From NCBI GenBank assembly GCA_903857795.1, contig CAIOGM010000073.1:1-57104 (forward strand): DNA of 57,104 nucleotides, in the 5' to 3' direction. Numbering within the stretch: the stretch's first letter is position 1; each line of letters starts with the position of its first letter. Below, in pieces: positions 40,195 through 56,351 of the stretch. The DNA is from an uncultured Geobacter sp. Its GTDB lineage: Bacteria > Desulfobacterota > Desulfuromonadia > Geobacterales > CAIOGM01. The translations under genes and the position numbers were made by a program. Under the pieces are notes generated by a model. It was given only the letters and a program-made list of their open reading frames with translations. It had not been told where the DNA came from and did not search any database.

Positions 40195-40230
40195 AATTGA
40201 TTTTTGAGGAGCTTTCGGCATTCGTGTACT

Positions 40231-41088
40231 ATGGACAACGCCCTGACCATCGACCTGGAGGAGTGGTATCACATCTGTACCGCGGTGCCTGACCCCCTCA
40301 CCCCCCCTGCCGGTGAGCGCCGGCTCCGGGGGAACACCGGGGCAATCCTCGCCATCCTGGAGAGGTTCCAGGTTGTGGCGACCTTCTTCATCCTCGGCAG
40401 CGTGGCGGAAGCCGAGCCCTCTCTGGTCCCACTCATCGCGGCGGCAGGGCATGAAATTGCCTCTCACGGCTGGTCGCACCGGCTGGTGACGACCCTGCAA
40501 CCGGAGGAGTTCCGGGATGAGCTGCGACGGACCGGCGACCTCCTGGAGCAGCAGTGCGGCCACCGCCCCATCGGCTTCCGGGCGCCCCAATGGTCCCTGG
40601 GGCCTGCTACTCCCTGGGCCTTCCATATCCTGCGGGAAGAGGGGTTCAGGTACGACTCCAGCCTCAATCCGCTCCCCTTCGTCGGAGAGCGACGCGGACC
40701 GCGCACCCCCCATCGACTGGACAACGGGCTCTGGGAGCTCCCTCCTCTGACCACGGCCTCTCCGGCGTGTAACCTCCCCACTGGCGGGGGGTGGGGGCTC
40801 CGGTTTTTCCCTGGGATGCTGATTAACGCCACGGTCAGGAGGCTGAACCGGGGCGGTTTTCCGGCGGTCATCTACATTCACCCCCGCGAAATCGACCCGG
40901 CCGGCCCCCGGCTCCCTCTCCCGCTCCTCAAGGGGTTTGCCGCCTATGGCCCGCGCCGCTCCGTGGCCGGGCGGCTGACAATGTTGCTTGCGCGTTTCCG
41001 GTTCACGACCATGACGCGCCTGGTGGATCAGTGGGATACTGTGTCGTCATCCCGGCGTACAACGCCGTCGCATTCATCTCCGCGGTAG
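40231..41088 (+). CDS. Polysaccharide deacetylase (NodB fold)
   Basis: A ~285-residue carbohydrate esterase from ATG 40231 (TTG 40204 possible; no good ribosome site). NodB motifs: ALTIDLEEWYH with the catalytic Asp, FFILGSVAE, HEIASHGWSH (metal His pair), GFRAPQWSLG and YDSSLNP. The DLEEWYH opening is typical of deacetylases linked to exosortase/exopolysaccharide loci (DUF3473 type). There is no signal peptide, so it acts in the cytoplasm, probably on a lipid-linked or nucleotide-linked acetylated sugar. The 3' end overlaps the glycosyltransferase by 58 bp, and the Ser/Arg-rich tail in the overlap may be an extension. Confidence 0.85.
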   Translation: MDNALTIDLEEWYHICTAVPDPLTPPAGERRLRGNTGAILAILERFQVVATFFILGSVAEAEPSLVPLIAAAGHEIASHGWSHRLVTTLQPEEFRDELRRTGDLLEQQCGHRPIGFRAPQWSLGPATPWAFHILREEGFRYDSSLNPLPFVGERRGPRTPHRLDNGLWELPPLTTASPACNLPTGGGWGLRFFPGMLINATVRRLNRGGFPAVIYIHPREIDPAGPRLPLPLLKGFAAYGPRRSVAGRLTMLLARFRFTTMTRLVDQWDTVSSSRRTTPSHSSPR

Positions 41089-41702
41089 CCTCCGAGGCGC
41101 TCCTCTGCGGGGCGCCGCTGCTCGTGGTCGACGACGGCTCAACCGACGGCACCGGAGAGGTCGCCCGCCGCCTGCCGGTAAATCTCATCAGGCACCACCG
41201 GAACCAAGGGAAGGGGGCGGCCCTCAGGAGCGCCTTTCAGTGGGCCCTCCTCCACGGTTTCGAGGGAGTGGTGACCCTGGATGCCGACGGTCAGCATGAC
41301 CCCATGGCCATCCCCCTCCTGGCGGCCACGGCGCAGAGGGACGGCCACGATATCCTCATCGCCTCCCGCTCGGTCCAGTTTCACCAGATGGGGGGGCTGC
41401 GCAGCTGGTGGAACCGGTTCGGAGTCAGCTGCATGAGACGGCGGACCGGCTTCGAGATCACCGACAGCCAGTCGGGGTTCCGCTACTACTCCTCCCGCCT
41501 GCTTCGGGGGGTGGAGTTGAACTGCAACGGCTATCACCTGGAGATGGAGCTCCTCATGAAAGCCTGGCTCGGCGGCTTCACCATCGCCTCCCTGCCGGTG
41601 GCGGCCCGGGTGGCCGACGGCAGGGGGACCAGCCACTTCCGGCCGGTTCGTGACACCTGGAACATCTGCATGACCTTCCTCCGTTACTTCCTGAGAGTGT
41701 GA
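41031..41702 (+). CDS. Family 2 glycosyltransferase (dolichol-phosphate mannosyltransferase-like)
   Basis: A 223-residue GT-A enzyme from GTG 41031. Motifs: CVVIPAYNAVAFI, LLVVDDGSTDGT, NQGKGAALRSAF, and the metal-binding TLDADGQHDP. It lacks C-terminal TM helices. It probably transfers a sugar from a nucleotide donor to a lipid carrier or to the lipid made by this locus. Its start lies inside the deacetylase gene and its stop touches the next gene, so translation is coupled. Confidence 0.88.
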   Translation: MGYCVVIPAYNAVAFISAVASEALLCGAPLLVVDDGSTDGTGEVARRLPVNLIRHHRNQGKGAALRSAFQWALLHGFEGVVTLDADGQHDPMAIPLLAATAQRDGHDILIASRSVQFHQMGGLRSWWNRFGVSCMRRRTGFEITDSQSGFRYYSSRLLRGVELNCNGYHLEMELLMKAWLGGFTIASLPVAARVADGRGTSHFRPVRDTWNICMTFLRYFLRV

Positions 41703-41704
41703 CC

Positions 41705-43054
41705 ATGCTGCAAGGGCTGAAAGAGTACTCCACCGAAAAAATTGTCTCGCTCCTGTTGTCCCTGGCCGGCTCCTGTTCCACCAGAAACCTGGCGAGGATG
41801 ACCCGCCTCATGGAGCTGATCCCCCGCAAGGAGTCATATAAGGAGAAGATCCGCTGGATCCGGCGGCTCATCCTGGAGAACCACCCCTCCATGGAGTTCC
41901 CTCGCCGGATTCTCCGGGAGGTCCATCCCAACCAGCGGAACAAGTGGATCACCAACCTGGCGGTGAACCACCTCCTCTCCGGCACCAACAAGCGGAAGGA
42001 GTGGCAGGAACGGGAGGGGTACTATCCCCCTTCCACCGTGGTCATCAGCCTGACCATGAAGTGCAACCTCTCCTGCTACGGCTGTTATGCCGGCGACTAT
42101 GAGAAGGGGCTGGAGCTGACCAACGATGAGGTCGACTCGGTCCTCACCCAGATGAAGGAGATGGGGGTCTACTTCGCGGTCATCTCCGGTGGGGAGCCGT
42201 TTTTCAAGAAGGACCTCTTCGAGATCTTCAAGAAGCATTCGGACATGGCTTTTTTGGTCTTCACCCATGGGGGGCTCATCGATGAGCAGGTGGTTCAGCA
42301 GCTGATCCAGGTGGGAAATGTCATGCCCGCCTTCTCCCTGGAAGGGTACGAAGAGCAGACCGACGAACGCCGGGGCACTGGGCACTTCAAGAAGGTGATG
42401 CGGGCCATGGAGCTCCTGAAGGGGGCGGGGCTCACCTACTGCGGCTCCTTCACCCAGACCAGCCGGAACACCGATATCATCACCGACAGCCGCTACATGG
42501 ATTTCCTCCTGGAGAAGGGGGTCTACGCCCTCTGGCTCTTCACCTATGTCCCCGTGGGACGGGAGCCGGATCTGGAACTAATGGCGACCCCGGAGCAGCG
42601 GGATCTGCTCCGCTCCCGGATCGTCGAGTTCCGCGCCACCAAGCCGATGCTCTTCGTTGACTTCTGGAACGACGGCCCCCTCATCGACGGCTGCATCGCC
42701 GGCGGACGCAAATACTTCCACATCAACGCCAACGGCGACATCGAGCCGTGCGTCTTCTGCCATGTGGCGTCGGACAACATCCGCCGGACCCCGCTCAAGG
42801 AGGCGCTCCGCTCCCCCCTCTTCAGCCGGATAAGGGAGAACCAGGGGGAGCAGGAGAATCTCCTGCGCCCTTGTATGCTCATCGACCATCCTGAACAGGG
42901 GCGGGAGCTGCTGGCCATGGAGGGGGTCTACCCCACCCACGGCGGGGCCGAGGCGATCTTCACTGACTTGGCCGCGGAGATGGACGACTATGCCGGACGG
43001 TACGGTGAGATCGCCGACCCGGTCTGGGAGGAGGGCAAAAAACCGCGCAGATGA
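41705..43054 (+). CDS. Radical SAM protein with SPASM-like C-terminus
   Basis: A 449-residue enzyme; ATG 41705 is preferred over GTG 41699 because GAGAG is better spaced. ~100 N-terminal helical residues precede a radical SAM barrel with CxxxCxxC at C120, C124, C127 (MKCNLSCYGC) and the GGEPFF motif. A C-terminal Cys-rich part (IDGCIAGGRKYFHINANGD, PCVFCH, PCMLIDHP) is SPASM/Twitch-like and should hold one or two auxiliary 4Fe-4S clusters. It resembles the radical SAM proteins near lipid and hopanoid-type loci, but the substrate is unknown. It ends ATGA into the acyltransferase. Confidence 0.85.
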   Translation: MLQGLKEYSTEKIVSLLLSLAGSCSTRNLARMTRLMELIPRKESYKEKIRWIRRLILENHPSMEFPRRILREVHPNQRNKWITNLAVNHLLSGTNKRKEWQEREGYYPPSTVVISLTMKCNLSCYGCYAGDYEKGLELTNDEVDSVLTQMKEMGVYFAVISGGEPFFKKDLFEIFKKHSDMAFLVFTHGGLIDEQVVQQLIQVGNVMPAFSLEGYEEQTDERRGTGHFKKVMRAMELLKGAGLTYCGSFTQTSRNTDIITDSRYMDFLLEKGVYALWLFTYVPVGREPDLELMATPEQRDLLRSRIVEFRATKPMLFVDFWNDGPLIDGCIAGGRKYFHINANGDIEPCVFCHVASDNIRRTPLKEALRSPLFSRIRENQGEQENLLRPCMLIDHPEQGRELLAMEGVYPTHGGAEAIFTDLAAEMDDYAGRYGEIADPVWEEGKKPRR

Positions 43055-43935
43055 CCCTCTACAACGGCCTGAATCTGTTCTTTATCAACCTCTTCACCCG
43101 GCTCGTGCCACGCCCCCTCTGCCCGCTCTTTGCCGCGCTCACCGGGTGGCTGGTCTATCTCTTCGTCCCCATGCAGCGGCGGGGAATGAGGGATAACCTC
43201 CGGACCGTGACCGGGCGCCGGTCGGTGGAGCTGCTGGTGCTGAGCGCCTTTTACAAATACTCCCGGAACTGGACCGATGTGATGCTGATGATCCGGTTGC
43301 GGGGGGAGCGGCTCTTCCGGCTCATCGGGCACCGCTCCAGCAGCCATCCCCTGGATGAGGCCCTGGCCGCCGGAACCGGCGCAATCCTGGTCTCTCCCCA
43401 CCTGGGGAACTGGGAGCTTGGAGGGCTGGGACTGGCCGAGATGGGGTACAAGCAGAACGTCATGACCTTTCGGGAACCCGATGAAAAGGTCAACGATCTC
43501 AGGGAGCGGTTCCGGTCGGAGCGGGGGATCGGCATCATCTATGTGGACCGCAACGACAGTTCTCCTCTGGCGATCATCGAGGCGGTGAACGCCTTGCGGC
43601 GCAACGAGATCGTGGTCCTCCTGGGGGAACGGGACGGTTCGTCCCATACCCTCCGGCTGGAGTTTTTCGGCCGCCCCACCGACATCCCGGTGGGAGCCGC
43701 CTACCTGGCCCTGGCCAGCGGAGCGCCGGTGATCCCGGTCTTTGTCCCCCTGGAGGGGGGGCGCTACTCCACCTACATGGAGGAGCCGATCTATTTCCGG
43801 GGAGGGCATGGCGAACATGCCGCTGTCATCCGGGAGGGGACGGAACGGCTGCTCAGGCTCTTCGAGACCTATATCCGGCGTTATCCGGACCAGTGGTACA
43901 ATTTTTTCCCCTACTGGCGAAACCACTCATCATAA
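43051..43935 (+). CDS. LpxL/HtrB-type lysophospholipid acyltransferase
   Basis: A 294-residue inner-membrane acyltransferase. One N-terminal hydrophobic region, then the HxxxxE motif in VSPHLGNWELGG (H117, E122), VYVDRNDSS-type donor region, and LLGERDGSS. This family transfers acyl chains from ACP to lipid A precursors; aryl polyene loci carry related enzymes that attach the polyene to a lipid head group. The position directly before the ACP gene supports using the locus ACP as acyl donor. Coupled by ATGA to the radical SAM gene upstream. Confidence 0.88.
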   Translation: MTLYNGLNLFFINLFTRLVPRPLCPLFAALTGWLVYLFVPMQRRGMRDNLRTVTGRRSVELLVLSAFYKYSRNWTDVMLMIRLRGERLFRLIGHRSSSHPLDEALAAGTGAILVSPHLGNWELGGLGLAEMGYKQNVMTFREPDEKVNDLRERFRSERGIGIIYVDRNDSSPLAIIEAVNALRRNEIVVLLGERDGSSHTLRLEFFGRPTDIPVGAAYLALASGAPVIPVFVPLEGGRYSTYMEEPIYFRGGHGEHAAVIREGTERLLRLFETYIRRYPDQWYNFFPYWRNHSS

Positions 43936-43947
43936 AAAGGAACCGAT

Positions 43948-44205
43948 ATGTCAGAAGCTCTCATCGAACCGGTAAAACAGCTCATCATCGATGCCCTCCG
44001 TATCGAAGGGCTCTCCTGTGCGGATATCGACAGCGACGCCCCGCTCTTCGGCGACGGACTGGGGCTCGACTCCATCGACGCCCTCCAGCTGGTGGTGGCC
44101 ATGGAGAAGGAGTACGGGGTGGTGGTCCCCGACGCCGCCACCGGCACGAAGGTTTTCCAGTCGGTCCGGAGCATGGCCGCGCATATCGCGGAACAGCGTA
44201 AATGA
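43948..44205 (+). CDS. Acyl carrier protein
   Basis: An 85-residue ACP with the phosphopantetheine site S42 in FGDGLGLDSIDALQLV. Acidic, helical, cytoplasmic. It is the only ACP in the locus, whereas classical aryl polyene loci have two, so it probably carries both the growing chain and the donor for the acyltransferase. No phosphopantetheinyl transferase gene is in the window. ATG 43948 follows AAAAGGA; the stop overlaps the next start (ATGA). Confidence 0.95.
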   Translation: MSEALIEPVKQLIIDALRIEGLSCADIDSDAPLFGDGLGLDSIDALQLVVAMEKEYGVVVPDAATGTKVFQSVRSMAAHIAEQRK

Positions 44206-45491
44206 GAATCCTCTTCGTCGTCCCCGGCTGGCCCAAGGGACGGCTCTGGGGTGAACTCGGCTTCAAGTTCCCCTCCCTCTCTCTGGCGGCCCTGGCTGCG
44301 GTGACCCCCGACGTTCATCAGATCGCCCTCTGGGATGAGAACATCCAACCGCGGGAGCCTGTCGCCCCGGTGGATCTGGTGGCGATCACCGCCATGACCC
44401 CCCAGGCGCCGCGGGCCTATGCCATCGCCGACTCCTTCCGGCTCCGGGGGATTCCGGTGGTGATGGGAGGGTTTCATGCCAGCGTCCTCCCGGAGGAGGC
44501 CTTGAGCCATGTGGATGCGGTGGTGGTGGGGGAAGGGGAGGGGGTCTGGCCCCGCCTCCTGGAGGAGCTCCAACGAGGGGAGATGGCCCGGTTTTACACC
44601 GCCGACTCTCTCATGGTGATGGCCGACCTCCCCCGGCCGCGGCGCACCCTGTTCAAGGGGAAGCGGTACCTCTTTACCAACACCCTCCAGACCACCCGCG
44701 GCTGCCCCTTTGACTGCGAATTCTGCTCGGTGACCGCCTTCTACGGCAGGAAGTACCGGACCCGGCCGGTGGCCGGCGTCTTGGCGGAGTTGGAAGAGCT
44801 TCGAAAGAAGAACTCCTTCGTCTTCTTTGTGGACGACAACCTGGTGGGGAACCGGGCCTATGCCCTGGAGCTCTTTGCCGGAATGAAGGGGATGGGATTG
44901 AAGTGGCTCTCCCACGCCCCCATCGACTTCGGCCGGGATCCGGAGCTCCTGCGGGCCGCCGGTGACTCCGGCTGTCTCGGCCTCTTTGTCGGCTTTGAAT
45001 CTCTGAACCAGGAGACGCTGGCGGCCATGGGGAAGGTGACCAACCTGGCAGCCTCCTATGGCGACGACGCCCGGGCGTTCCGGGATCACGGCATCGGCAT
45101 CCTCGGCTCCTTCGTCCTCGGCTGCGACGGCGACACCCCCGAGCTTTTTCCCCGGCTGCTCCGTTTCTGCGAGGAGGCGCGGCTGGAGGCGGCCATCTTT
45201 CCGATCCTGACCCCCTTTCCGGGGACCAAGATTCGCGACCGTCTTGAGGCGCAAGGGCGGATCACCTCCAACGCGTGGGAGGATTACGACATGGGGCATG
45301 TCACCTTCCGGCCCCAGGGGATGACCGCTCAAGAGCTGCAGGAGGGGCACGACCAGCTCAACCGCTCCTTCTACTCCTTCGGTTCCATCTACCGCCGGCT
45401 CTTCAAGCTCCACCGGTCGGTGCAGGTCTTCGGACCGATGAACATCGGCTTCCGGAGCGCCATCCGGAACTGCCGGAAGGGGTCGCCATGA
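44202..45491 (+). CDS. B12-binding-type radical SAM enzyme (first paralogue)
   Basis: A 429-residue protein of the BchE/P-methylase-like class. The N-terminal ~140 residues form a Rossmann fold like cobalamin-binding domains (ILFVVPGWPKG, LVAITAMTPQA, VVMGGFHASVLPEEAL, VVVGEGEG) but lack the DxHxxG cobalamin ligand motif, as do many members. The radical SAM site is C168, C172, C175 in TRGCPFDCEFC. A C-terminal ~100 residues follow. It is a clear paralogue of the last gene of the locus (55014). Likely C-methylation, ring formation or rearrangement on an ACP- or lipid-bound substrate; the reaction is not predictable. Confidence 0.88.
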   Translation: MRILFVVPGWPKGRLWGELGFKFPSLSLAALAAVTPDVHQIALWDENIQPREPVAPVDLVAITAMTPQAPRAYAIADSFRLRGIPVVMGGFHASVLPEEALSHVDAVVVGEGEGVWPRLLEELQRGEMARFYTADSLMVMADLPRPRRTLFKGKRYLFTNTLQTTRGCPFDCEFCSVTAFYGRKYRTRPVAGVLAELEELRKKNSFVFFVDDNLVGNRAYALELFAGMKGMGLKWLSHAPIDFGRDPELLRAAGDSGCLGLFVGFESLNQETLAAMGKVTNLAASYGDDARAFRDHGIGILGSFVLGCDGDTPELFPRLLRFCEEARLEAAIFPILTPFPGTKIRDRLEAQGRITSNAWEDYDMGHVTFRPQGMTAQELQEGHDQLNRSFYSFGSIYRRLFKLHRSVQVFGPMNIGFRSAIRNCRKGSP

Positions 45492-46333
45492 ACTGTTTTA
45501 TGTTTCCCGGTCAGCCCCTCTCCCGGAGCGACCGGCTCCCCGAGGATGCCGGCTGGTGCCAGGTGGTCGAGCTCTGCCGACGCCACGCCGGGTTTGATCC
45601 GGAGAGCTGGCGCGGGGAAGAGGGAGAGTGCGGCGGGAACGTGGCGCTGCAGCTGTACGGCGTCGCCATGAGCCTCTACGGCGCCCGCCTCCTGGCCCAA
45701 AAAGGGGTGAAGCCGAGGATCGTGGCCGAGCACAGCATGGGGATTTATGCGGCGCTGGCCTGCTGCGGTGTGGTGGCAGAAGAGGCGGCCCTGGAGATCG
45801 CCTCCAGGGTTGGACGGGCCATGGCGCGGATGGGGCGCACCCGGCGCTACGCCCTGGGGTGCGTGGTCGGTCTGACCATGGAGCCGCTCCTGGTCGTTGC
45901 GGAAAACCACGGGGTCTATCTGGCGAACCGGAACACCGACCGCCATTTCCTCCTCTCCGGCGAACGGGGGCGGATCGAAGCGGCCATGGCCGAGGCCGTC
46001 GCCTCGGGCGCCTTCTCCGCCAGGAGCTTCCCCTGCGACGCTCCGCTCCATACGCCGCTCATGGCGGAGCTGGAACCGGAACTGCGAGAGGTCTTCGCCG
46101 ACTACCGCTACCAGGAGCCGGTGATCCCGCTCATGAATCATATCGACCAGGAGCTCCTCACCGGCGCAGAGATTGCGGAGTTCATGCTCCGGGAGCTCCG
46201 GCTCCCGGTCCAGTGGGAGCAGAGCTATCGGGCGTTACGTAGGGCAGGCGTCAACCATTTCCTGGAGGTGGGGGGAGGGGACTCCCTCAAGAAGTATAAC
46301 CGCTGGATCGACAGTCAGTCGTCCCGGAGCTAA
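45488..46333 (+). CDS. FabD-fold acyltransferase with atypical active site
   Basis: A 281-residue protein from ATG 45488, overlapping the previous stop (ATGA). It starts MNCFMFPGQP like malonyl-CoA:ACP transacylase. The nucleophile S83 is present, but the motif is EHSMG instead of GHSLG; the catalytic His is in DAPLHTPLM. Aligned without gaps from the nucleophile to VVGL, the position of the malonyl-binding Arg of FabD is Val108, so a dicarboxylic substrate is doubtful. It may load a non-carboxylated starter acyl group onto the ACP or edit it. Confidence 0.82.
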   Translation: MNCFMFPGQPLSRSDRLPEDAGWCQVVELCRRHAGFDPESWRGEEGECGGNVALQLYGVAMSLYGARLLAQKGVKPRIVAEHSMGIYAALACCGVVAEEAALEIASRVGRAMARMGRTRRYALGCVVGLTMEPLLVVAENHGVYLANRNTDRHFLLSGERGRIEAAMAEAVASGAFSARSFPCDAPLHTPLMAELEPELREVFADYRYQEPVIPLMNHIDQELLTGAEIAEFMLRELRLPVQWEQSYRALRRAGVNHFLEVGGGDSLKKYNRWIDSQSSRS

Positions 46334-46335
46334 CG

Positions 46336-46764
46336 ATGCCCCCGATCTGGCACGAGACCCCCCTGACGGTCAGGTTTAACGAGGTCGACTCCTACCAGGT
46401 GGCCTGGCACGGCCATTTTGTCGCCTGGATGGAGGTGGGACGAAACGACCTGGCCGGCCGGTTCGAGCTCAACGCCGAGCAGATCGGCGCCGCCGGTTTC
46501 CGGGCGCCGGTGGTCACCCTGGAGCTGAAATTCCGGCGGCCGGCCCGGTTTAATGAACGGCTGATCATCGCCACTTCGGCGCGCCGTTGCGAGAGCGCCA
46601 CCCTGGAGTTCCCCTGCCGGATCATGGGTGAGGGGAGAGCGCTCCTGGCCGAAGGCTCCACCATCCATGTGCTCACCGACAGCGCCGGCATACTCCAGTA
46701 CCGCCTGCCACCCCTCATCGCCGGGCGGCTGGAGCGGCTACTGGCGAGCCTGGAGACACCATGA
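46336..46764 (+). CDS. 4HBT-family thioesterase
   Basis: A 142-residue hotdog protein starting two bases after the acyltransferase stop. The N-terminal LTVRFNEVDSYQVAWHGHFV matches the family region that holds the catalytic acid, and the KFRRPARFNERLIIAT strand is typical of 4-hydroxybenzoyl-CoA thioesterases. Aryl polyene loci include such a thioesterase. It may hydrolyse or transfer acyl-ACP. Coupled by ATGA to the next radical SAM gene. Confidence 0.87.
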   Translation: MPPIWHETPLTVRFNEVDSYQVAWHGHFVAWMEVGRNDLAGRFELNAEQIGAAGFRAPVVTLELKFRRPARFNERLIIATSARRCESATLEFPCRIMGEGRALLAEGSTIHVLTDSAGILQYRLPPLIAGRLERLLASLETP

Positions 46765-48158
46765 AACTCCTCCTGGTCTCGGCCAACCGCGAACGGTCCC
46801 CCTATCCGGTCTTCCCTATCGGACTCTCCTCCCTGGTCCCTCCCCTGACCGCCGCCGGCCATGAGCTGGAGATCCTGGATCTCTGCTTCAGCGTCGAGCC
46901 GGAACGGGAGCTGACCGAGGCGCTCCACCGATACGCCCCCGATGCCGTGCTCCTCTCCATCCGGAATCTGGATAACGTCACCTGGCCCGGCTCACGCTCC
47001 TACCTGAACGAGGTGAGAGAGGCGGTGGCGGCCTGTCGCGGCAGCGCACCGGTGATCCTGGGGGGCTCCGGATTTTCACTCATGCCGGAGGAGCTGCTCC
47101 GCCACCTGGGAGGAGATTATGGTGTGGTGGGGGAGGGGGAGGAGATCCTCCCGCTGCTTCTGGCTGCGCTGGTGCGGGGCGATCCGGTGGCCGGGCTTCC
47201 CGGCGTGGTGACGCCGGAGAGGAGCGGCTATGCGCCGCCGCTCCCGGTCTCACAGATCGGCAGCCCCGACCGCCGGCTTTTCCAGCTGGCCCGTTACCAC
47301 CGGGAAGGGGGGATGGCCAACCTCCAGACGAAACGGGGGTGCCCCTTCGGCTGCGTCTACTGTACCTACCCCCTCCTTGAGGGGACGCGGGTGCGGCTGC
47401 GCCCCGTGTCCGAGGTCATCGCCGAGGTCCGGGGGCTGAGTGATGACTCGGGTGTCGACTACCTCTACTTTGTGGACGACATCTTTAACTACCCTCCCGA
47501 CTATGCCCTGGAGCTCTGCCAGGCCATGACTGCGGCAAAGCTGAAGGTCAACTGGTCGGCCTTCATCAACCCCCAGTTCGTCACGGGGGAGCTGATGGCG
47601 GCCATGGTGGCGGCCGGCTGTGACGCAGTGGAGTACGGCAGCGACTCGGGCTCTCCGGCCATGCTCCGCTCCCTGGGTAAGTCGTTCACCGTCTCCCATA
47701 TCCGGGATGCCTCGACCCTCTGCCACGAACAGGGGGTCGATTTTGCCCACTACATCCTCTTTGGCGGGCCGGGGGAGTCGGTGGAAACCATCGACGAGAC
47801 CTTCACCCTTATGGACGAGGTCAACCCCACCGCGGTCATTGCCATGACCGGCATCCGGATCTATCCCGGCACGGCGCTGCAGAGGCAGGCCATTAACGAG
47901 GGGCTCATCACGGCCGAGACACCGCTCCTGGAGCCGCTCTTCTACATCTCTCCCCCTCTCCGGGAGAGCCTGGCCTCCCTGGTGACGGAGCGGGCCATGG
48001 CCCGGCGGAGCTGGGTGGCGCCGGGGCTGGAGATCAACATGAGCGACGCCATGTTGGAGGCGCTCCGCTCCTTTCCGGTGCGCGGCCCCCTCTGGAAGCT
48101 GATGAAACGGCTGGGGCGGAGCCGGGTCCGGCCCATGGCGGGAGGCGATGGCCGGTAA
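46761..48158 (+). CDS. B12-binding-type radical SAM enzyme (second type)
   Basis: A 465-residue protein. N-terminal cobalamin-binding-like Rossmann region (KLLLVSANRERSPYPVFPIG, VILGGSGFSLMPEELL, GVVGEGEEILP), then C194, C198, C201 in KRGCPFGCVYC, FVDDIFNYPPDYA, and a C-terminal extension. It differs from the 44202/55014 pair and is closer to the general B12 radical SAM class. It is the last gene before a 228-bp gap with two inverted repeats, so it probably ends the first transcription block of the locus. Confidence 0.88.
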   Translation: MKLLLVSANRERSPYPVFPIGLSSLVPPLTAAGHELEILDLCFSVEPERELTEALHRYAPDAVLLSIRNLDNVTWPGSRSYLNEVREAVAACRGSAPVILGGSGFSLMPEELLRHLGGDYGVVGEGEEILPLLLAALVRGDPVAGLPGVVTPERSGYAPPLPVSQIGSPDRRLFQLARYHREGGMANLQTKRGCPFGCVYCTYPLLEGTRVRLRPVSEVIAEVRGLSDDSGVDYLYFVDDIFNYPPDYALELCQAMTAAKLKVNWSAFINPQFVTGELMAAMVAAGCDAVEYGSDSGSPAMLRSLGKSFTVSHIRDASTLCHEQGVDFAHYILFGGPGESVETIDETFTLMDEVNPTAVIAMTGIRIYPGTALQRQAINEGLITAETPLLEPLFYISPPLRESLASLVTERAMARRSWVAPGLEINMSDAMLEALRSFPVRGPLWKLMKRLGRSRVRPMAGGDGR

Positions 48159-48259: not shown

Positions 48260-48325
48260 GTCGTAGGAGCGGCCTGCGGCCGCGAATGATGCAGGGAATT
48301 CGCGCCTAAAGGACGCTCCTACGAG
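48260..48325. repeat. Composite inverted repeat (REP/BIME-like)
   Basis: Outer arms TCGTAGGAGCG (48261-48271) and CGCTCCTACGA (48314-48324), inner arms CGCGAAT (48281-48287) and ATTCGCG (48298-48304), plus a local GGCCTGCGGCC palindrome. It resembles the GTAGGAGCGGCxTxxGCCGCGA class of repeats. Together with the preceding repeat it fills the only sizeable gap in the lipid locus. Confidence 0.7.
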
Positions 48326-48386: not shown

Positions 48387-49127
48387 ATGGAATTCACCGA
48401 TAAGATCGTCGTCGTGACCGGCGGGACACGAGGCATAGGACGAGCCATCTCTCTGCTGTTCGCCAATGAAGGGGCGCGGGTCTTTGCCGCCTATCGGGAG
48501 AACGACGCGGCGGCCACGGCCCTGGAGAGTGCCGCAACCGGGCTTCCCGGCTCCATCACCACGATACGGGCCGACGTGAGCAGCTCCCCGGGGGCCATCG
48601 CCCTCATGGATGCGGCGGCAGCGGAGAGCGGGGGGATCGATATCCTCATCAACAACGCCGGTATCATCAGGGACTGCTATCTGGCCATGATGTCGGAAGA
48701 GGACTGGGAAAGTGTTATCCGGAACAACCTGTCACCGCTGTTTCACTGTGGCAAGTGGGGGGTCCGGAAGATGATCGGCCGGAAAGGGGGGGCCATGGTC
48801 AACCTCTCGTCAATCTCGGCGCTCACCGGAACCCCCGGCCAGACCAACTACGCCGCCACCAAGGGGGGGATCATCAGTTTCACCAGGTCCCTGGCCCGGG
48901 AGGTTGGCCCCCTGGGGATCAGGGTCAACGCCGTGGCCCCCGGTCTCATTGGGACGGAGATGGTCGCCGGGATGAAGCCGGAGCAGGTCAAGAAGGTTGT
49001 AGCCGGGACCAGTATCGGCCGGCTCGGTTCGACCGAAGAGGTGGCCCAGGCGGTCCTCTTCCTCGCCTCTCCCCGCGCCTCCTACATCACCGGGCACTGC
49101 CTCGTGGTGGACGGCGGGATAATCTGA
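48387..49127 (+). CDS. 3-oxoacyl-ACP reductase (FabG-like SDR)
   Basis: A 246-residue short-chain dehydrogenase: TGGTRGIGRAI cofactor loop, NNAG, catalytic Ser in NLSSISALTG, and YAATK (Tyr/Lys). It should reduce the beta-keto group after each condensation using NADPH. ATG 48387 follows GCGAGGTATCC. First gene of the second block; ~100 bp separate it from the ketosynthase. Confidence 0.92.
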   Translation: MEFTDKIVVVTGGTRGIGRAISLLFANEGARVFAAYRENDAAATALESAATGLPGSITTIRADVSSSPGAIALMDAAAAESGGIDILINNAGIIRDCYLAMMSEEDWESVIRNNLSPLFHCGKWGVRKMIGRKGGAMVNLSSISALTGTPGQTNYAATKGGIISFTRSLAREVGPLGIRVNAVAPGLIGTEMVAGMKPEQVKKVVAGTSIGRLGSTEEVAQAVLFLASPRASYITGHCLVVDGGII

Positions 49128-49228
49128 TGCTGTTAAAAACAGTTTGTCTCCGACAGCGGTAACGAGTAGAATGCAGATTCTCTGTCGTGCCGCTTTACCG
49201 GCCTCCTTCCCTCGGTTTCAGGATCCTC

Positions 49229-50434
49229 ATGTTTGAAACAGCTATCGCCATAACCGGAGTCGGCATCTTCTGTGCCGCAGGGGAGGATATACCCTCGTTT
49301 CGCGCCGCCCTGCGGGAGGGGCGCAGCGGCATCGGTCCGGTGGAGCTGTTCGACGTCTCCCCCTTCCCTTCGCGGATCGGGGCGGAACTGCGGGGGTACG
49401 ATCCCCGGGAACGGTTCGACCGGAGGGAGGCGGCTCGTCTCTCCCGGGCGGACCAGTTCGCGATCATCGCCGCGGAGCAGGCCCTGCAAAGCTCACGAGC
49501 GCTGGAACGGTACGACTCCTTCGACCTGGGGCTCTCTGTTGGGGGAGGAGCCGCGGGGATGCTCCATGGGGAACAGTGGCTCAAGGGGGTGCTGGCGGGA
49601 CGCCGGGAAGATCCGGCGCTGCTGGCGGGGCTCCTTCCAGACCGGACCGCCACGGTGCTGGCCTCACGCTTCGGCCTCGCCGGCTACCAGGGGAGCATCA
49701 CCACCGCCTGCTCTTCGTCGGCCACGGCTATCGGCTGGGGCGCTGACCTGGTGGCCACCGGCAGGGTCAAGGCGCTCCTCTGCGGCGGCACCGATGCCTT
49801 CTCCCTCCTCACATATGCGGGGTTCAACTCCCTCCGGGTAGTGGATCCCAACCCCTGCGCCCCTTTCAGTCTCGGCCGGGAGGGGATCTCCCTGGGAGAA
49901 GGGGCGGCGTTTCTGCTCCTGGAGCGGGAGGATGAGGCCCGCCGACGGGGGGCGGCCATCTACGGCAGAGTTCTCGGCTACGCCATGACCGGCGAGGGGT
50001 ACCATATGACCGCGCCGGAGCCGACCGGTTCCGAGGCGGCCCGGGTGATGCGCGGCGCCCTGGAGCACGCCGGAGTTCTCCCCGATGCAGTGGGGTGGGT
50101 CAACGCCCACGGCACCGGCACACCGCTCAACGACGTGGTGGAGACCAGGGGGATGAAACTCCTCTTCGGCGAACGGGCAGCCGACGTCCCGCTCATCTCC
50201 ACCAAGGCGGTGACCGGGCACTGTCTTGGAGCCGCCGGCGCCATCGAAGCCGTGGCGACGATTATCAGCCTCAATGACCGTTTTATCCCCAGGACCCTCC
50301 ATTTCCGGGGGGCAGATCCCGAGTGCGACCTGGAGTACTGCCACCATGGCGCCCGGGAGTCGGAGGCAACGGTGGCTCTCTCCAACTCCTTTGCCTTCGG
50401 CGGCAACATAACTACCCTGGTGCTGGGCAGATGA
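49229..50434 (+). CDS. Beta-ketoacyl-ACP synthase (FabF-like, complete active site)
   Basis: A 401-residue ketosynthase from ATG 49229; an in-frame start at 49187 adds 14 residues without a ribosome site. Complete triad: C161 in ITTACSSSATA, H294 in VNAHGTGTPLND, and H331 in AVTGHCLGAAGA. It does decarboxylative condensation of the growing chain with malonyl-ACP. The stop overlaps the start of a second KS-like gene (ATGA), as in KS/chain-length-factor pairs of type II polyketide and aryl polyene systems. Confidence 0.93.
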   Translation: MFETAIAITGVGIFCAAGEDIPSFRAALREGRSGIGPVELFDVSPFPSRIGAELRGYDPRERFDRREAARLSRADQFAIIAAEQALQSSRALERYDSFDLGLSVGGGAAGMLHGEQWLKGVLAGRREDPALLAGLLPDRTATVLASRFGLAGYQGSITTACSSSATAIGWGADLVATGRVKALLCGGTDAFSLLTYAGFNSLRVVDPNPCAPFSLGREGISLGEGAAFLLLEREDEARRRGAAIYGRVLGYAMTGEGYHMTAPEPTGSEAARVMRGALEHAGVLPDAVGWVNAHGTGTPLNDVVETRGMKLLFGERAADVPLISTKAVTGHCLGAAGAIEAVATIISLNDRFIPRTLHFRGADPECDLEYCHHGARESEATVALSNSFAFGGNITTLVLGR

Positions 50435-51477
50435 GCTCTATCCCTCTCGTCATAACCGGAGTCGGCGCGGTCTCCTCCGCAGGAGTCGGCATCGTCCCCC
50501 TCATGGAGGCGCTCAAGAGCGGCCACTCCTCTCTCCGTCCCCTCCCCAACCAGGTTCTCGGTGAAACGGGTCACCAATGGGGGCCCGCCTCCGACTTCCG
50601 GGTGGCCGACTTCATGCCGCCGCTCAAGGCCCGCAAGTTCGACCGGAGCAGTCAGTTTGCCATCGTGGCAGGAGGGCTGGCACTGAAGGATGCCGGACTC
50701 TCCGTTGGGGAACTGGAGCCGACCCGGATCGGCATCGTCATGGGGTGCGGCTTCGGCGGGATAACCAACTCATCCGGGTTCCTGGAGGGGTACTTTCAGG
50801 GGGGGACCGACGGCCTCATCCCCATGCTCTTCCCCAATACCGTCCCCAACGCCGCGGCCAGCAACTGCTCCATCGAACTCCGCCTCAAGGGGCCAAACGT
50901 CACCATGGTGCAGCGGTTCTGTTCCGCGGAGTCGGCGCTCCTCATGGCCCGACGCTTCATCGAGGAGGGGCGGGCCGATGCCATGCTCGTCGGCGGGGTG
51001 GACGAGATCAGCCCCCTCATCCTGAAGGGATTTCACGCACTGGGCCAACTCCGGCCGGCTGCTCACGGTAGAGGCTTTGGCGAGGGGGCGGGGATCATGG
51101 TGCTGGAGCGCGCCGATCATGCAGCCCGGCGCGGCGCCCGGCTCCGGGGGCGACTGGGTGAACTCCGGACGGTGGGGCTCCTCCCTACCGGACGTGAAGC
51201 AGAGGGGCTCTCCCGGCTCCTGACCGGACTCCCCGAGCCGGCGCTCCTCACCCTCTCCGGCACGGCCCCAAGCCGTAAGGAGCTTGCCGAACTCTTCCCC
51301 GGCGTTCCCCGTCTCGACACCGGACCACTCCTGGGGCGCTCCCTGGCCATGGGGGGGATCGCCATGACGGCGCAGCTCCTGATGCTTGCCAACGGGGCCA
51401 CCGGCATTCACCTGGCCGCCTCCCCGGAAGGGCCGTGGTATGTCGTCGTTTTCCACGGAGCGGATCCCCTGCCGTGA
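50431..51477 (+). CDS. Ketosynthase-like partner subunit without catalytic histidines
   Basis: A 348-residue thiolase-fold protein from ATG 50431. The first two thirds follow FabF (VITGVGAVSSAGVG; FPNTVPNAAASNCSIELRLKG) and a Cys is kept at the nucleophile position (C164 in VQRFCSAESALL). The C-terminal part is shorter: the AHGTGT and KxxxGHxxGAAG motifs are absent, the latter replaced by TGPLLGRSLAMGG. It should not catalyse condensation by itself and is likely a chain-length-factor-like partner of the KS encoded just upstream, with possible decarboxylase or acyl-holding function through C164. Confidence 0.85.
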   Translation: MSSIPLVITGVGAVSSAGVGIVPLMEALKSGHSSLRPLPNQVLGETGHQWGPASDFRVADFMPPLKARKFDRSSQFAIVAGGLALKDAGLSVGELEPTRIGIVMGCGFGGITNSSGFLEGYFQGGTDGLIPMLFPNTVPNAAASNCSIELRLKGPNVTMVQRFCSAESALLMARRFIEEGRADAMLVGGVDEISPLILKGFHALGQLRPAAHGRGFGEGAGIMVLERADHAARRGARLRGRLGELRTVGLLPTGREAEGLSRLLTGLPEPALLTLSGTAPSRKELAELFPGVPRLDTGPLLGRSLAMGGIAMTAQLLMLANGATGIHLAASPEGPWYVVVFHGADPLP

Positions 51478-51851
51478 TTGATCCCGCCACCCGCCTTCCC
51501 CACCGTAATCCATTCCTCTTACTGGACCGGGTGACCCGCCTGGAGCCGGGGGCCGCCGCCGAGGCCGAACTCCTCTTCACCCATTTTCCCGGCTTCCCTT
51601 CACTGCTGCTGGTGGAGGCCATGGCTCAACTGGCCGGAGTCGTCGCCATCGAGACCGAAGGGGAGATCGGCTCCCTGGCCGCCATCGACCGGGCCGAGCT
51701 CCTTGTCCCGCTCTCACCGGGGGATCGCCTCACCATCAGCGTGCGGATCGTCAAGCGGTTCGGCCGTCTCATCCTCTGTGACGGCGAGATCACGCGTGCC
51801 GGGGAAACGGTGGCCACGGCCCTCCTCACCCTGGGGGTTGGTGCCCCATGA
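51474..51851 (+). CDS. FabZ-like 3-hydroxyacyl-ACP dehydratase
   Basis: A 125-residue hotdog protein; GTG 51474 overlaps the KS-like stop (GTGA). LPHRNPFLLLDRV matches the FabZ opening; catalytic candidates are H37 in THFPGFP and E48 in LLVEAMAQLAG. The loop between them is three residues shorter than in FabZ by eye. It should dehydrate the beta-hydroxyacyl-ACP to an enoyl group. No enoyl reductase gene lies in the locus, so double bonds would be kept. Coupled by ATGA to the LolA-like gene. Confidence 0.87.
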   Translation: MIDPATRLPHRNPFLLLDRVTRLEPGAAAEAELLFTHFPGFPSLLLVEAMAQLAGVVAIETEGEIGSLAAIDRAELLVPLSPGDRLTISVRIVKRFGRLILCDGEITRAGETVATALLTLGVGAP

Positions 51852-52495
51852 TCCGGACCCACTCGTTCTCCGTGCCCCCATGCCTGCGTGGTTCAGCTAC
51901 CGTTGTGCTGTTACTCTCTCTGTTCGGTGTCGCAACCATGGCCGCCGCCGAACCGCTGACCCCGGTGGAGGGGCTGGAACTTCTGCGACGGGGTTTTGCC
52001 GGCATGACCGACTTTACCGCGGAGATCACCCAGGAGAAACAGCTCTCCCTGATGAAGAAGAAGTTGACCTCCACCGGCCGGGTCCGTTTCCGGCGGCCGG
52101 GCAGTTTCTTCATGGAGATCTTTGCCCCCTACTCCAGTCGCCTGCTCTTGGAGAAGAGCGACCTGACCATCTTCTACCCCGCAGAGAAGAGCCGTCAGAA
52201 GATTCCGCTCCCGGCTGAAGAGGGACTGGGGAGGTGGTTTACCTATCTGGACAAACCGATCACCACCCTCCCTGAGGGGGTGCAGCTGCAGGCGGAGCGT
52301 CACGGCGAAATTTGCACCCTCCGGATAGCGCCCCAGGGGAAACAAGGGGTCAGGGAGCTGACCCTGCTCTTCCTGGACGACGGCCGGATCAAGAGGGTGA
52401 TCATCGAGGAGCAGAACGGCGACCGCAACAGCATCACCTTCCGGAACATGAAGAAAAATGTGGGACTCACGGACAAGGAGTTCCGCCTGGAATGA
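51848..52495 (+). CDS. LolA-like periplasmic carrier of the lipid locus
   Basis: A 215-residue protein with an N-terminal signal sequence (hydrophobic core VVLLLSLFGVATM, cleavage near MAAAEPL) and a LolA-type half-barrel: GMTDFTAEITQEKQLSLMKK, RVRFRRPGSFFMEIFAPY, LEKSDLTIFYPAEK. Aryl polyene loci carry a LolA-like protein thought to help move the lipid to the outer membrane. The first ~20 residues come from DNA resembling a common CTCCGTG repeat (see findings). Coupled to the exporter by ATGA. Confidence 0.87.
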   Translation: MIRTHSFSVPPCLRGSATVVLLLSLFGVATMAAAEPLTPVEGLELLRRGFAGMTDFTAEITQEKQLSLMKKKLTSTGRVRFRRPGSFFMEIFAPYSSRLLLEKSDLTIFYPAEKSRQKIPLPAEEGLGRWFTYLDKPITTLPEGVQLQAERHGEICTLRIAPQGKQGVRELTLLFLDDGRIKRVIIEEQNGDRNSITFRNMKKNVGLTDKEFRLE

Positions 52496-55017
52496 TCTCT
52501 CGCCTCTTTGCTCTGCTCAACGCCGCTGTAACTGCCCACCTTAACTGGATCTGGCGCGTCTCCGTCCGCTCTCCCCGTATGGTTGCCTTCGGAACGCTGC
52601 TCCTCCTGATCCCGGCCCTCTGGAGTGTGGCGACCACCCGTTTCGAGTTCGACATCTTCCGGCTCTTCCCCGCCGAGAAGGGGGCGCTCCGGCTCTTTCT
52701 GGACTCCCTGGAGTGGACCGGGAGCGGCCAGGAGGCGTTCTTCGTCCTGGAAGGGGCGAAGGGGGAGCTGATACCGGCGGCCACGGAGTTCGCCCAAAAG
52801 CTCTCCGCTCTCAAGGTGGACGGGGGACCGGCATTCAAAAAAGTCACCTGGCGAACGGTGGACCCGGCGGAGGCGGAGCCGTTTGCCGCGTTCGTCGGTT
52901 ATGCCGCGACGAGGCCGGAGCTCTTCCTCACCCCGGCGGAGCTGGCGGGTCTACAGGAGCGGCTCACCCCCCAGGGGATGGAGCGGGCGCTCCGGCGCGC
53001 AACCACCGAGCTGGCGGGACAGGCAGGGATGGTGTCACGGGGGCTCATCGTGCGGGATCCCCTGGGGATCAGGGAGCTGATCCTCCCCCGGCTCCGCCAG
53101 GCGAGCCAGACCCTGGACCTGGATAGCTCCTCCCCCTATTTCCTCTCCCGGGATGGGCGGCTCCTGGTCATCATCGCCGAACCGGCTAAACCGGTACAGG
53201 AGATGGCCTTTGCCCGGAAGCTGGTGGCGGCCATCAACGTCGCACGGGCCGGTTCAAGGGTAAAAATCTCCTGCGCCGGGGCCCACCTGAGCGCGGTCAT
53301 CGACGAGGCGAGCATGAAGGGGAACATCGTCTCCTGCGTCATCTCGTCCCTGGCGGTGGTCCTGGGGCTTTTTTATTTCACCTACCGGAGGCTCCTCCCC
53401 ACGCTCCTCATCCCGGTGATCATCTTCTTCGGCGCCTTCCTGGCCCTGGGGAGCGCGGGGCTCTTCCTCTCTTCCATCCACATCATCTCCTTCGCTTTTA
53501 CCGCCCTCATCATCGGTCTGGGAACCGACTACTCCATCCATATCTACGACCGGTTCTATTCGGAGCGGCAACATGGGGCAGAGACCGAGGAGGCGCTCCG
53601 GCTGGCCATCACCGACACCGGCCACGGGGTCTTCACCGCAGCCGTCACCACGGCGGCGCCGTTTCTGGCACTCACCATCTCCGATGTCCGGGCGCTCTTC
53701 GAGTTGGGTCTTCTCGTGGGGTTGGGGGTGCTCTTCTCCCTCTACGCCACCTACTTTTTCCTCCCCCCTCTGCTCATCTTCGCCGAACGGCGCTTCCCCT
53801 TGGCGATCTATCGCCCCCTCCCTTCCTTCGGTCTCGGGCCGCTCTGGGACTGCTGCATCCGGCGACGAAGAGGGATCACCATCGTTACCGCGCTGCTCAT
53901 CGTGCTCCTCCTGGGGGCAGCGACCCGGCTGGGATTCGAGGGGGATCTGAAGAAGCTCCAGCCGCGGCAATCGGAGGCGCTCCTGACCCAGGAGAAGATC
54001 GAGCAGCATCTGAACCTGAGCCCCAAGTCGCTCATGATCGCCGTGGAAGGGAGCGACCTCTCCCAGGTCCTGGCGCGGGGTGCCAGGGCTGACGCTCTTG
54101 CGGAGCGATACCGGCGGCAGGGGGAGCTGGTCGCCTGGTCGTCATTGGGGCAGATTATTAACGCTCCCCGGAACCAGAAGGTGATGACCGGCCTGCTGAC
54201 CACGGCCCTGGCCGGCCGTGACAGTGCCGGGGAGCTCCGCCGCGCCCTGGAGCGGGGTGGATTCAGCATCGAGCCCTTTGCCCCGGCTCTGGCGGGGGTC
54301 GCGGCATTTGCCGACTCACGGCCGGACGGCGCAGCCGAGGCGGTGAAGAGGCTCTCCGCCTCGCCGCTCAAGGGGGTGGTGGAGCGGCATCTGGTGAAGC
54401 ACGACGGCGTCTGGCGGCTCCTCAGCCACCTCTCCTACAATGGTGAAGAGTTTCACCGGGAGCGGTTTCTGGCGGAGCTGGCAACGGAGCTTCCCGGGGT
54501 GAGGACGACCGGCGTAGACCTGGTTGCAGAACAGCTCTCCTCTTCGGTACGGCGGAGTTTCGGCTGGACTCTCCTGTTGGGGGGGATCCTTGTTCTACTC
54601 CTCCTGATGTCCCACTTCGAATCCAAGGCCGGGATATTCGCCTCGCTCTTTCCGGTCTTTGCCGGCGGCGTCGCCATGCTGGGGCTTATGGTCTTCACCG
54701 GGATGAAACTCAACTTTATGAACTCCATGGTCATCATCACCATCCTGGGAATGGGAAGCGACTACGGCCTGCACATCTTCCACCGGGCAGGAAGCGTCGG
54801 GCCAGGGCAGCGGGAGCGGTTCATCCAGGCGGGACGGGCCGTGCTCCTCTCGGCCCTCACCACCATCGCCGGCTTCGGCTCCCTAGCCTTCACCGATTAC
54901 GGCGCCATGTCCTCCATCGGCTGGGCCACCAACTACGGCATCGCCGCCACCGCCCTCTTCTCTCTCATCTCCCTGCCGGCGCTGCTGGCGCTGCGCGGTT
55001 CACCCAAGGGCTCATGA
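52492..55017 (+). CDS. MMPL/RND-type exporter
   Basis: An 841-residue inner-membrane exporter with two RND-like halves. TM1 lies at ~30-47, followed by a large periplasmic domain. A cluster of five TM helices then includes IHIISFAFTALIIGLGTDYSIH and is followed by DTGHGVFTAAVTTAAPFLAL. The second half ends with MNSMVIITILGMGSDYGLH and a final TM block. The GxGxDYxxH motif is the proton-relay signature of MMPL transporters. ATG 52492 overlaps the LolA-like stop. It corresponds to the exporter of xanthomonadin/aryl polyene loci and should extract the lipid from the inner membrane for handover to the LolA-like carrier. Confidence 0.92.
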   Translation: MISRLFALLNAAVTAHLNWIWRVSVRSPRMVAFGTLLLLIPALWSVATTRFEFDIFRLFPAEKGALRLFLDSLEWTGSGQEAFFVLEGAKGELIPAATEFAQKLSALKVDGGPAFKKVTWRTVDPAEAEPFAAFVGYAATRPELFLTPAELAGLQERLTPQGMERALRRATTELAGQAGMVSRGLIVRDPLGIRELILPRLRQASQTLDLDSSSPYFLSRDGRLLVIIAEPAKPVQEMAFARKLVAAINVARAGSRVKISCAGAHLSAVIDEASMKGNIVSCVISSLAVVLGLFYFTYRRLLPTLLIPVIIFFGAFLALGSAGLFLSSIHIISFAFTALIIGLGTDYSIHIYDRFYSERQHGAETEEALRLAITDTGHGVFTAAVTTAAPFLALTISDVRALFELGLLVGLGVLFSLYATYFFLPPLLIFAERRFPLAIYRPLPSFGLGPLWDCCIRRRRGITIVTALLIVLLLGAATRLGFEGDLKKLQPRQSEALLTQEKIEQHLNLSPKSLMIAVEGSDLSQVLARGARADALAERYRRQGELVAWSSLGQIINAPRNQKVMTGLLTTALAGRDSAGELRRALERGGFSIEPFAPALAGVAAFADSRPDGAAEAVKRLSASPLKGVVERHLVKHDGVWRLLSHLSYNGEEFHRERFLAELATELPGVRTTGVDLVAEQLSSSVRRSFGWTLLLGGILVLLLLMSHFESKAGIFASLFPVFAGGVAMLGLMVFTGMKLNFMNSMVIITILGMGSDYGLHIFHRAGSVGPGQRERFIQAGRAVLLSALTTIAGFGSLAFTDYGAMSSIGWATNYGIAATALFSLISLPALLALRGSPKGS

Positions 55018-56351
55018 CCTCTGTTCACTCCCTGCGAAACAGAGCGGACCGGCCCCGTCTCCTGCTGATTTATCCGGCGACCCACAAGCTCGGCTGGGTG
55101 GGGTGGTTCCAGCTCCCCTCCCTCTCCCTCCAGCAGGTGGCTGCCGTGGTCCCCCCCTCCTGGGAGGTGACCCTGTTGGACGAGCTGCAGGAGGAGGTCA
55201 CGTTCGACACCACGTACGATCTGGTGGGAATCACTGCCATGAGCCACCAGGCGACCCGGGGGTATGAGATCGCCGAACGGTTTCGCTCCCAAGGGATTCC
55301 GGTGGTCATGGGGGGGATTCACCCCTCGGTCCTCCCCCATGAGGCGCTGACTCACGCCGATTCGGTGGTGGTGGGGGAGGCGGAGCCGGTCATGGCGCAG
55401 CTCCTGGAAGATTGCCTCAACGGTTGCCTGAAACCGATCTATCGCTCCTCGTTCCCCGATAACGACCTCCTCACCATCCCCTGGCCCCGCCGGGAACTCC
55501 TGGCGGGAAAGCGCTATCTCACCACCCAGACGGTACAGGCCAGCCGCGGCTGTCCCTACGACTGCCCCTTCTGCACGGTCACCCCCTACTTCGGCCGGAG
55601 TTTTCGCTACCGGGCGCCGGACGATATCCTGGCGGAGCTCCGCTCCTTCCGCGGACGGCTGACGATATTCCTGGATGACAACATCCTGGGGGATCCGGAG
55701 CGGGCCAAGCCGATCCTCAAGGGGATGGTGGGGATGGGGCTCAAATGGGGAGGGCAGGCCAATCTCCGCTTTGCCGAGGATCCGGAGCTGGTCCGGCTGG
55801 TGGCCGCCTCGGGCTGTATCGGCATCTTCGTGGGGATCGAGACAGCCACCGGCTCATTTGCCAACCTTCCCAAGAACAGCGGCGGCTCCTCGGCGGCGGA
55901 GTTGATCAGGCGGGTCAGGGATGCGGGGATCGTGCTGGAGGCGTCCCTCATCTTCGGTTTTGACGATCATGACGAGAGCATCTTTGACCGGACCCTCGCC
56001 TTTTTGGATGACTGTTCGCCGGGGGTGGCCACCTTCAACGTTCTCACCCCGTACCCGGGGACGGAGCTCTTCAGGCAGTTCGAGGCCGAAGGGCGGCTCC
56101 TGCACCGCGACTGGCGACGGTACGATCACTCCCAGGTGGTCTTTCGGCCCAAGCTCATGACCCCGGAACGGCTCTATCGGGGATGGCTGGAGGTGCGGCA
56201 GGAGGTCTACCGCTGGCCGGCCATCTTCTCGCGAGTCCTCTCCTCCCCAAAGGGGCGATTCACCACGCTGGCTTATAACCTGCTGCGGCGGGGAGGAAAT
56301 CTCTCCGCCGCCGAACTGGCGCTTCTGGCTGAGAAGACTGTACCAATATAA
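55014..56351 (+). CDS. B12-binding-type radical SAM enzyme (paralogue of the 44202 gene)
   Basis: A 445-residue protein. The N-terminal Rossmann-like part (RLLLIYPATHKLGWVGWF, LVGITAMSHQATRGYEIA, VVMGGIHPSVLPHEAL, VVVGEAEP) and the radical SAM site C180, C184, C187 (SRGCPYDCPFC) match the gene at 44202 block by block, including the LAGKRYL linker and the C-terminal FNVLTPYPGTELFRQ. No DxHxxG motif. Two related enzymes in one locus imply two successive or alternative modifications of the same kind of substrate. Last gene of the locus; coupled to the exporter by ATGA. Confidence 0.88.
   Translation: MTSVHSLRNRADRPRLLLIYPATHKLGWVGWFQLPSLSLQQVAAVVPPSWEVTLLDELQEEVTFDTTYDLVGITAMSHQATRGYEIAERFRSQGIPVVMGGIHPSVLPHEALTHADSVVVGEAEPVMAQLLEDCLNGCLKPIYRSSFPDNDLLTIPWPRRELLAGKRYLTTQTVQASRGCPYDCPFCTVTPYFGRSFRYRAPDDILAELRSFRGRLTIFLDDNILGDPERAKPILKGMVGMGLKWGGQANLRFAEDPELVRLVAASGCIGIFVGIETATGSFANLPKNSGGSSAAELIRRVRDAGIVLEASLIFGFDDHDESIFDRTLAFLDDCSPGVATFNVLTPYPGTELFRQFEAEGRLLHRDWRRYDHSQVVFRPKLMTPERLYRGWLEVRQEVYRWPAIFSRVLSSPKGRFTTLAYNLLRRGGNLSAAELALLAEKTVPI

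Follow-up and report, generated by a model that had tools for sequence, protein, structure and literature searches.

The acyltransferase (AT) encoded at positions 45488..46333 (+ strand, 281 aa) of the window, i.e., the whole stretch of 57,104 nucleotides from an uncultured Geobacter sp. that was analyzed, is a homolog of FabD with the motif EHSMGIY, and it belongs to a family in which the malonyl-binding arginine has been lost. By analogy to GilQ, there is about an even chance that it is a dedicated acyl-CoA:ACP transacylase, which would load a non-dicarboxylic starter onto the acyl carrier protein (ACP) of its gene cluster. The cluster is widespread in Geobacterales, and an assignment of its product was not found in the literature. 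The altered active site of the AT leads to a direct prediction on the first building block of this product, and the same reasoning is relevant to the priming of ladderane-type FASII clusters.

A FabD-fold acyltransferase without the malonyl-binding arginine

The AT is a genuine FabD-fold (AT-fold) protein, as a preliminary description of this DNA had proposed. It is a member of the Pfam family Acyl_transf_1 (PF00698; 58.2 bits, gathering cut-off 32.7), and a profile of 59 AT homologs matched E. coli FabD with an E value of 1e-47 in a profile search of the PDB. The AlphaFold (AF2) model has a mean pLDDT of 95.4 and matches FabD (6u0j) with a VIA-align Z of 33.6 over 274 aligned residues; it also matches the structure of VinK (5czc, Z 30.6). 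PksD (8avz) was found with the AT sequence (E 5.5e-7), and its absence from the 50 VIA-align matches listed has no bearing either way. The start codon of the gene (ATG, 45488) overlaps the stop codon of the preceding radical SAM gene (ATGA), and a purine-rich stretch, GGAAGGGG, is located upstream of it.

The catalytic pair has been retained. The nucleophile motif E81-H-S83-M-G85 (45728..45742, +; GHSLG in FabD) contains Ser83, the equivalent of FabD S92, and His188 (codon 46049..46051, +), which is invariant in the family alignment, corresponds to FabD H201. Both catalytic residues are kept across the AT family, with the exception of one relic, and His82, directly before the nucleophile, is invariant. 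E81 to L129 of the AT can be aligned with G90 to L138 of FabD without a gap over 49 positions, 15 of which are identical. In this alignment Val108 (R107-V108 codons: 45806..45811, +) occupies the site of Arg117, by which FabD binds malonyl. Hence, the gapless register, the placement of Arg117 on Val108 and the retention of Ser83 and the catalytic His, which had all been noticed before, were reproduced. Among 76 distinct homologs, position 108 is occupied by Ile (49), Val (13), Ala (6), Gly (4), Leu (2), Thr (1) or Phe (1), and by a basic residue in none, whereas Arg is present in 33 of the 33 FabD-type enzymes compared, nearly all of which are from genomes of the same order. Because all 76 family members examined are without this Arg and all 33 FabD-type enzymes compared have it, its loss is neither due to chance nor to a sequencing error.

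It had been pointed out that R107 or R110 might take the place of Arg117, and this was found not to be the case. In the model of the AT the nucleophile (83) is followed by a helix (98-116), of which V108 is the 11th residue, and by a strand (121-127). The genome's own FabD, modeled with a pLDDT of 94.8, has its nucleophile at residue 92, R117 as the 11th residue of the following helix (107-124), and the strand at residues 130-136. Nucleophile, helix start and strand are all shifted by 9 residues between the two models, and therefore V108 and R117 are both the 11th residue of the same helix; this register refers to the sequences and the secondary structures of the models rather than to side-chain coordinates. 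Position 116 of FabD, the equivalent of R107, varies freely among A, S, M, L, R and K, and in one FabD-type enzyme Arg117 is preceded by another Arg at 116. In the AT family R107 is restricted to the Geobacterales branch; the other members have Gly, Ser, Asp, Glu or Ala in its place, and residue 110 varies. The helix register and the lack of conservation outside of the clade thus rule out both residues as substitutes.

The exchange of GHSxG for EHSMG, which had also been described, turned out to be part of a family signature, EHSMGIY (E81 96%, M84 97%, I86 97%; G, L and E in FabD). Also fixed in the family, and different from FabD, are L187 (most FabDs have Phe here and that of E. coli has Ser), E236 (FabD Gln250), H218 (FabD Asn231), K269 (FabD Gly283) and W273 (FabD Arg287), and the GQGSQ loop is altered as well. 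H218 (97%) and H153 (87%) are conserved in the AT family, but not in FabD. The FabD positions 190 and 287, which are usually basic, are Ser and Trp in the AT, and thus CoA is not assured as the donor, though the basic K286 of FabD is conserved as Arg and Lys269 is new. K269 and R272, both on the last helix, are conserved basic residues. From the family-wide loss of the Arg, which argues against malonyl as the substrate, we infer with good support that a non-dicarboxylic acyl group is the likelier substrate of the AT, in agreement with the preliminary description.

The AT gene is part of a conserved, translationally coupled block

The AT gene is located in a type-II-PKS/"ladderane-like" cluster, and all genes listed in the following are on the + strand. 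A dedicated ACP with the serine motif GLDSID (43948..44205; PF00550), a B12-binding radical SAM protein (B12a, 44202..45491), the AT, a hotdog thioesterase of the YbgC/FadM-like type (46336..46764) and a second B12-binding radical SAM protein (B12b, 46761..48158) are encoded in a conserved, translationally coupled block. The genes for the ACP and B12a, for B12a and the AT, and for the thioesterase and B12b overlap by 4 nt each, and the thioesterase gene directly follows the AT gene in nearly all related loci. B12b belongs to the "ladder" family TIGR04072 (397.1 bits, cut-off 360), a feature of "ladder" lipid clusters. Conserved genes upstream of the block encode a polysaccharide deacetylase, a GT2 glycosyltransferase, a radical SAM/SPASM protein and an LpxL-like acyltransferase (40204..43935). 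The genes downstream encode a FabG-like ketoreductase (48387..49127), a ketosynthase (KS) with Cys-His-His motifs (ORF 49187..50434, likely start at an ATG 45 nt further in), a chain-length-factor-like (CLF) second KS with Phe in the Cys position, as read directly from the sequence (50431..51477), a FabZ/FabA-like dehydratase (51435..51851), a LolA-like carrier (51848..52495), an MMPL-type exporter (52492..55017) and a third B12-binding radical SAM protein (B12c, 55014..56351). Between the TIGR04072 and the ketoreductase genes lies a 27-nt inverted repeat with 81% complementarity and a 10-nt loop (48261-48324), which resembles an intergenic palindromic repeat.

No AMP-/acyl-CoA ligase and no priming KS (KSIII) were detected among the annotated cluster genes or the other main ORFs of the window that were tested, and a single ACP was detected in the cluster. 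The genome contains a canonical FabD (GHSLGE, with the Arg) on another contig (C143), next to a FabH, and a second FabH on contig C78. Therefore, malonyl can be supplied without the need of the cluster AT. In addition, the same genome harbors a type I PUFA-synthase-like locus (G000 contig C128, around 69000-82000), which comprises multidomain ORFs of more than 2000 aa with AT domains.

Distribution of the AT family

Members of the AT family were found in 35 of the 58 related genomes searched (matches with E <1e-70), and the cluster also reaches Syntrophaceae-type and Planctomycetota genomes. In the tree a branch with an SH-aLRT of 84 separates the AT family from FabD. A tblastn search of plasmids with the AT yielded only FabD and PKS relatives among the best matches listed. 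The gene order ACP-B12a-AT-thioesterase-B12b is retained in most Geobacterales loci, and ACP, AT and thioesterase genes are kept together in Syntrophaceae-type loci.

The Syntrophaceae-type versions of the cluster (L048, L059, L165) have additional genes. In L059 the SPASM and LpxL genes are separated by genes for an acyl-CoA dehydratase activase (TIGR00241, 197.5 bits, cut-off 125.4) and for two DUF2229/HGD-D proteins, and a similar activase-like gene is present in the other two. These neighbors are compatible with a CoA-thioester precursor and give a weak clue to the donor. Activase and DUF2229/HGD-D genes were not seen in the cluster of the window; two HGD-D genes are present in its genome outside of the cluster.

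Several deviating loci were observed. In Geomonas silvestris (L042, 8850-10840) an intact GT2-ACP-AT remnant is all that is left of the cluster; the nucleophile Ser of its AT is exchanged for Gly (QHGLGI), and this AT probably is a dead relic. Another subfamily of Arg-less ATs (L153-L157, genome family f25) has GFSLGIF in place of GHSLGE and adjoins a TIGR04072 radical SAM protein, a ketoreductase, an ACP and a thioesterase. In genome family f16 (L146-L152, L160, L161) the cluster is split, with an ACP-AT-thioesterase-B12 radical SAM cassette apart from the KS/CLF-like genes. An argument for loading from the occurrence of such cassettes in KS-free genomes was dropped, because those genomes contain KS/CLF-like genes elsewhere.

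Proposed function and alternatives

As a loading enzyme, the AT would use Ser83, activated by His188, to accept the acyl moiety of a CoA thioester, a non-dicarboxylic group that would be short, branched or aryl, and would pass it to the phosphopantetheine of the neighboring ACP. The acyl-ACP would then provide the starter, either by priming the KS/CLF pair or by offering its acyl group to the B12-radical SAM enzymes, and the housekeeping FabD encoded elsewhere in the genome would supply malonyl-ACP for elongation. The class of the substrate, CoA as the donor and the direction, i.e., loading rather than hydrolysis, are the parts of this scheme that we infer. In its favor, the Arg-less EHSMGIY state is fixed in the family, the AT gene is close to the ACP gene in the coupled block from Geobacterales to Syntrophaceae-type loci, and a separate hydrolase, the thioesterase, is encoded next door. 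The stand-alone AT with its dedicated ACP and the lack of a KSIII among the annotated cluster genes are in line with a GilQ-like loading AT; GilQ loads propionyl-CoA onto the ACP in a type II PKS without a priming KS (PMC12664062). The preliminary description had suggested that the AT might provide the missing starter-loading step of the locus. In view of the conserved coupling to the ACP, the lack of a detected ligase or priming KS, the presence of FabD elsewhere and the GilQ precedent, this stands as a reasonable best guess; it had been left out of consideration, however, that Arg-less AT homologs of polyketide systems are frequently editing acyl hydrolases.

The loss of the Arg also counts against loading, because it has been called diagnostic for the acyl hydrolases of trans-AT PKSs, in which the Arg117 position is likewise replaced (PMC11775670). 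As the main alternative, it is possible, though rather doubtful, that the AT is an editing acyl-ACP hydrolase like ZhuC, EncL or PksD/PedC, which would clear the cluster ACP of acetyl and other incorrect short acyl groups and make room for the proper starter or for malonyl. The AT homologs ZhuC and EncL of type II PKSs are indeed editing thioesterases (PMC12664062). However, the Arg site is usually occupied by Gln or His in trans-AT hydrolases and by Ile, Val or Ala in the AT family, those hydrolases often have Ser, Ala or Val at the position of FabD His91, which corresponds to the invariant His82, and a thioesterase is already encoded beside the AT in nearly all loci. The balance between loading and editing is drawn from gene context and precedent.

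It is unlikely that the AT shuttles a finished or intermediate acyl chain from one carrier protein to another, or off-loads it from the ACP to CoA or another acceptor: the AT-fold protein VinK moves an intermediate between two ACPs (PMC6164871), its structure is among the matches of the AT model, and K269 and R272 are conserved, but no second ACP was seen among the cluster genes, and the thioesterase is available for release. Still less probable is a malonyl transferase that holds the carboxylate by another residue, e.g., His218 or His153. These conserved histidines, which are foreign to FabD, could bind a carboxylate, and this counts against the loading of a non-dicarboxylic starter. The overall fold is that of FabD, and the best NCBIfam scores of the AT were obtained with malonyl enzymes, namely, MdcH (TIGR03131, 133.5 bits) and FabD (TIGR00128, 105.3 bits). 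However, both scores are far below the cut-offs (297.9 and 260.9, respectively), R107 and R110 are out of register with Arg117 and lack conservation, and the genome contains a normal FabD.

A more far-reaching version of starter loading, to which we assign a rather low probability, is that the Arg-less EHSMG ATs represent a distinct starter-loading class that defines a ligase-free branch of reducing type II PKS/lipid clusters in anaerobes, with B12 radical SAM enzymes as the driving force. The starter, bound to CoA and in some lineages produced via a 2-hydroxyacyl-CoA dehydratase-type system, would be transferred to the ACP and give rise to an aryl-polyene-like or ladderane-related lipid.

Comparison with known systems

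The AT shares with FabD/MCAT (TIGR00128) the fold, the Ser-His catalytic pair and the gapless register around the active site. It differs by the absence of Arg117, by EHSMGI instead of GHSLGE, by Glu for Gln250 and Leu for Phe/Ser200, and by the altered GQGSQ loop; in line with its score below the equivalog cut-off, the GHSxGE motif is absent. MdcH, the epsilon subunit of malonate decarboxylase, is also a stand-alone AT and yielded the best NCBIfam score, but this identity was rejected on the basis of the cut-off, and no malonate decarboxylase genes were seen in the AT cluster.

The loading AT GilQ of the gilvocarcin cluster, which was compared by its description, is likewise a stand-alone AT homolog, and its type II PKS cluster is devoid of a priming KS, whereas the cluster of the window encodes a reducing KS/CLF together with B12 radical SAM enzymes. 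ZhuC and EncL, also compared by description only, and PksD/PedC have the AT fold, and the loss of the malonyl Arg is documented for the PksD-type. Of the hallmarks of PksD/PedC, the AT shows the absence of the Arg, but neither Gln/His at this site nor the motif G(A/S/V)SL; in addition, the cluster does not encode a trans-AT PKS, and it contains a separate thioesterase gene.

At the level of the cluster there is a resemblance to the ladderane-type FASII clusters of anammox bacteria and Desulfotalea, for which the consulted sections of Rattray 2009 (PMC2649909) describe a divergent KS pair, radical SAM/B12 proteins, and glycosyltransferase and deacetylase genes. The same sections report a phenylacetyl-CoA-ligase-like gene there, in contrast to the Arg-less AT and the absence of a detected ligase in the cluster of the window, and list Kuenenia with a single fabD and no paralog. 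They also name Geobacter among the organisms with clusters similar to those of Kuenenia and Desulfotalea, and contain no discussion of an AT in the Geobacter clusters. Apart from that paper, the literature searches yielded nothing that treats the Geobacter cluster as one for an aryl polyene or a ladderane. The AT with EHSMG and without the Arg thus represents a new subfamily within a known fold, and it belongs to a cluster that was already noticed in 2009 but for which no characterization was found.
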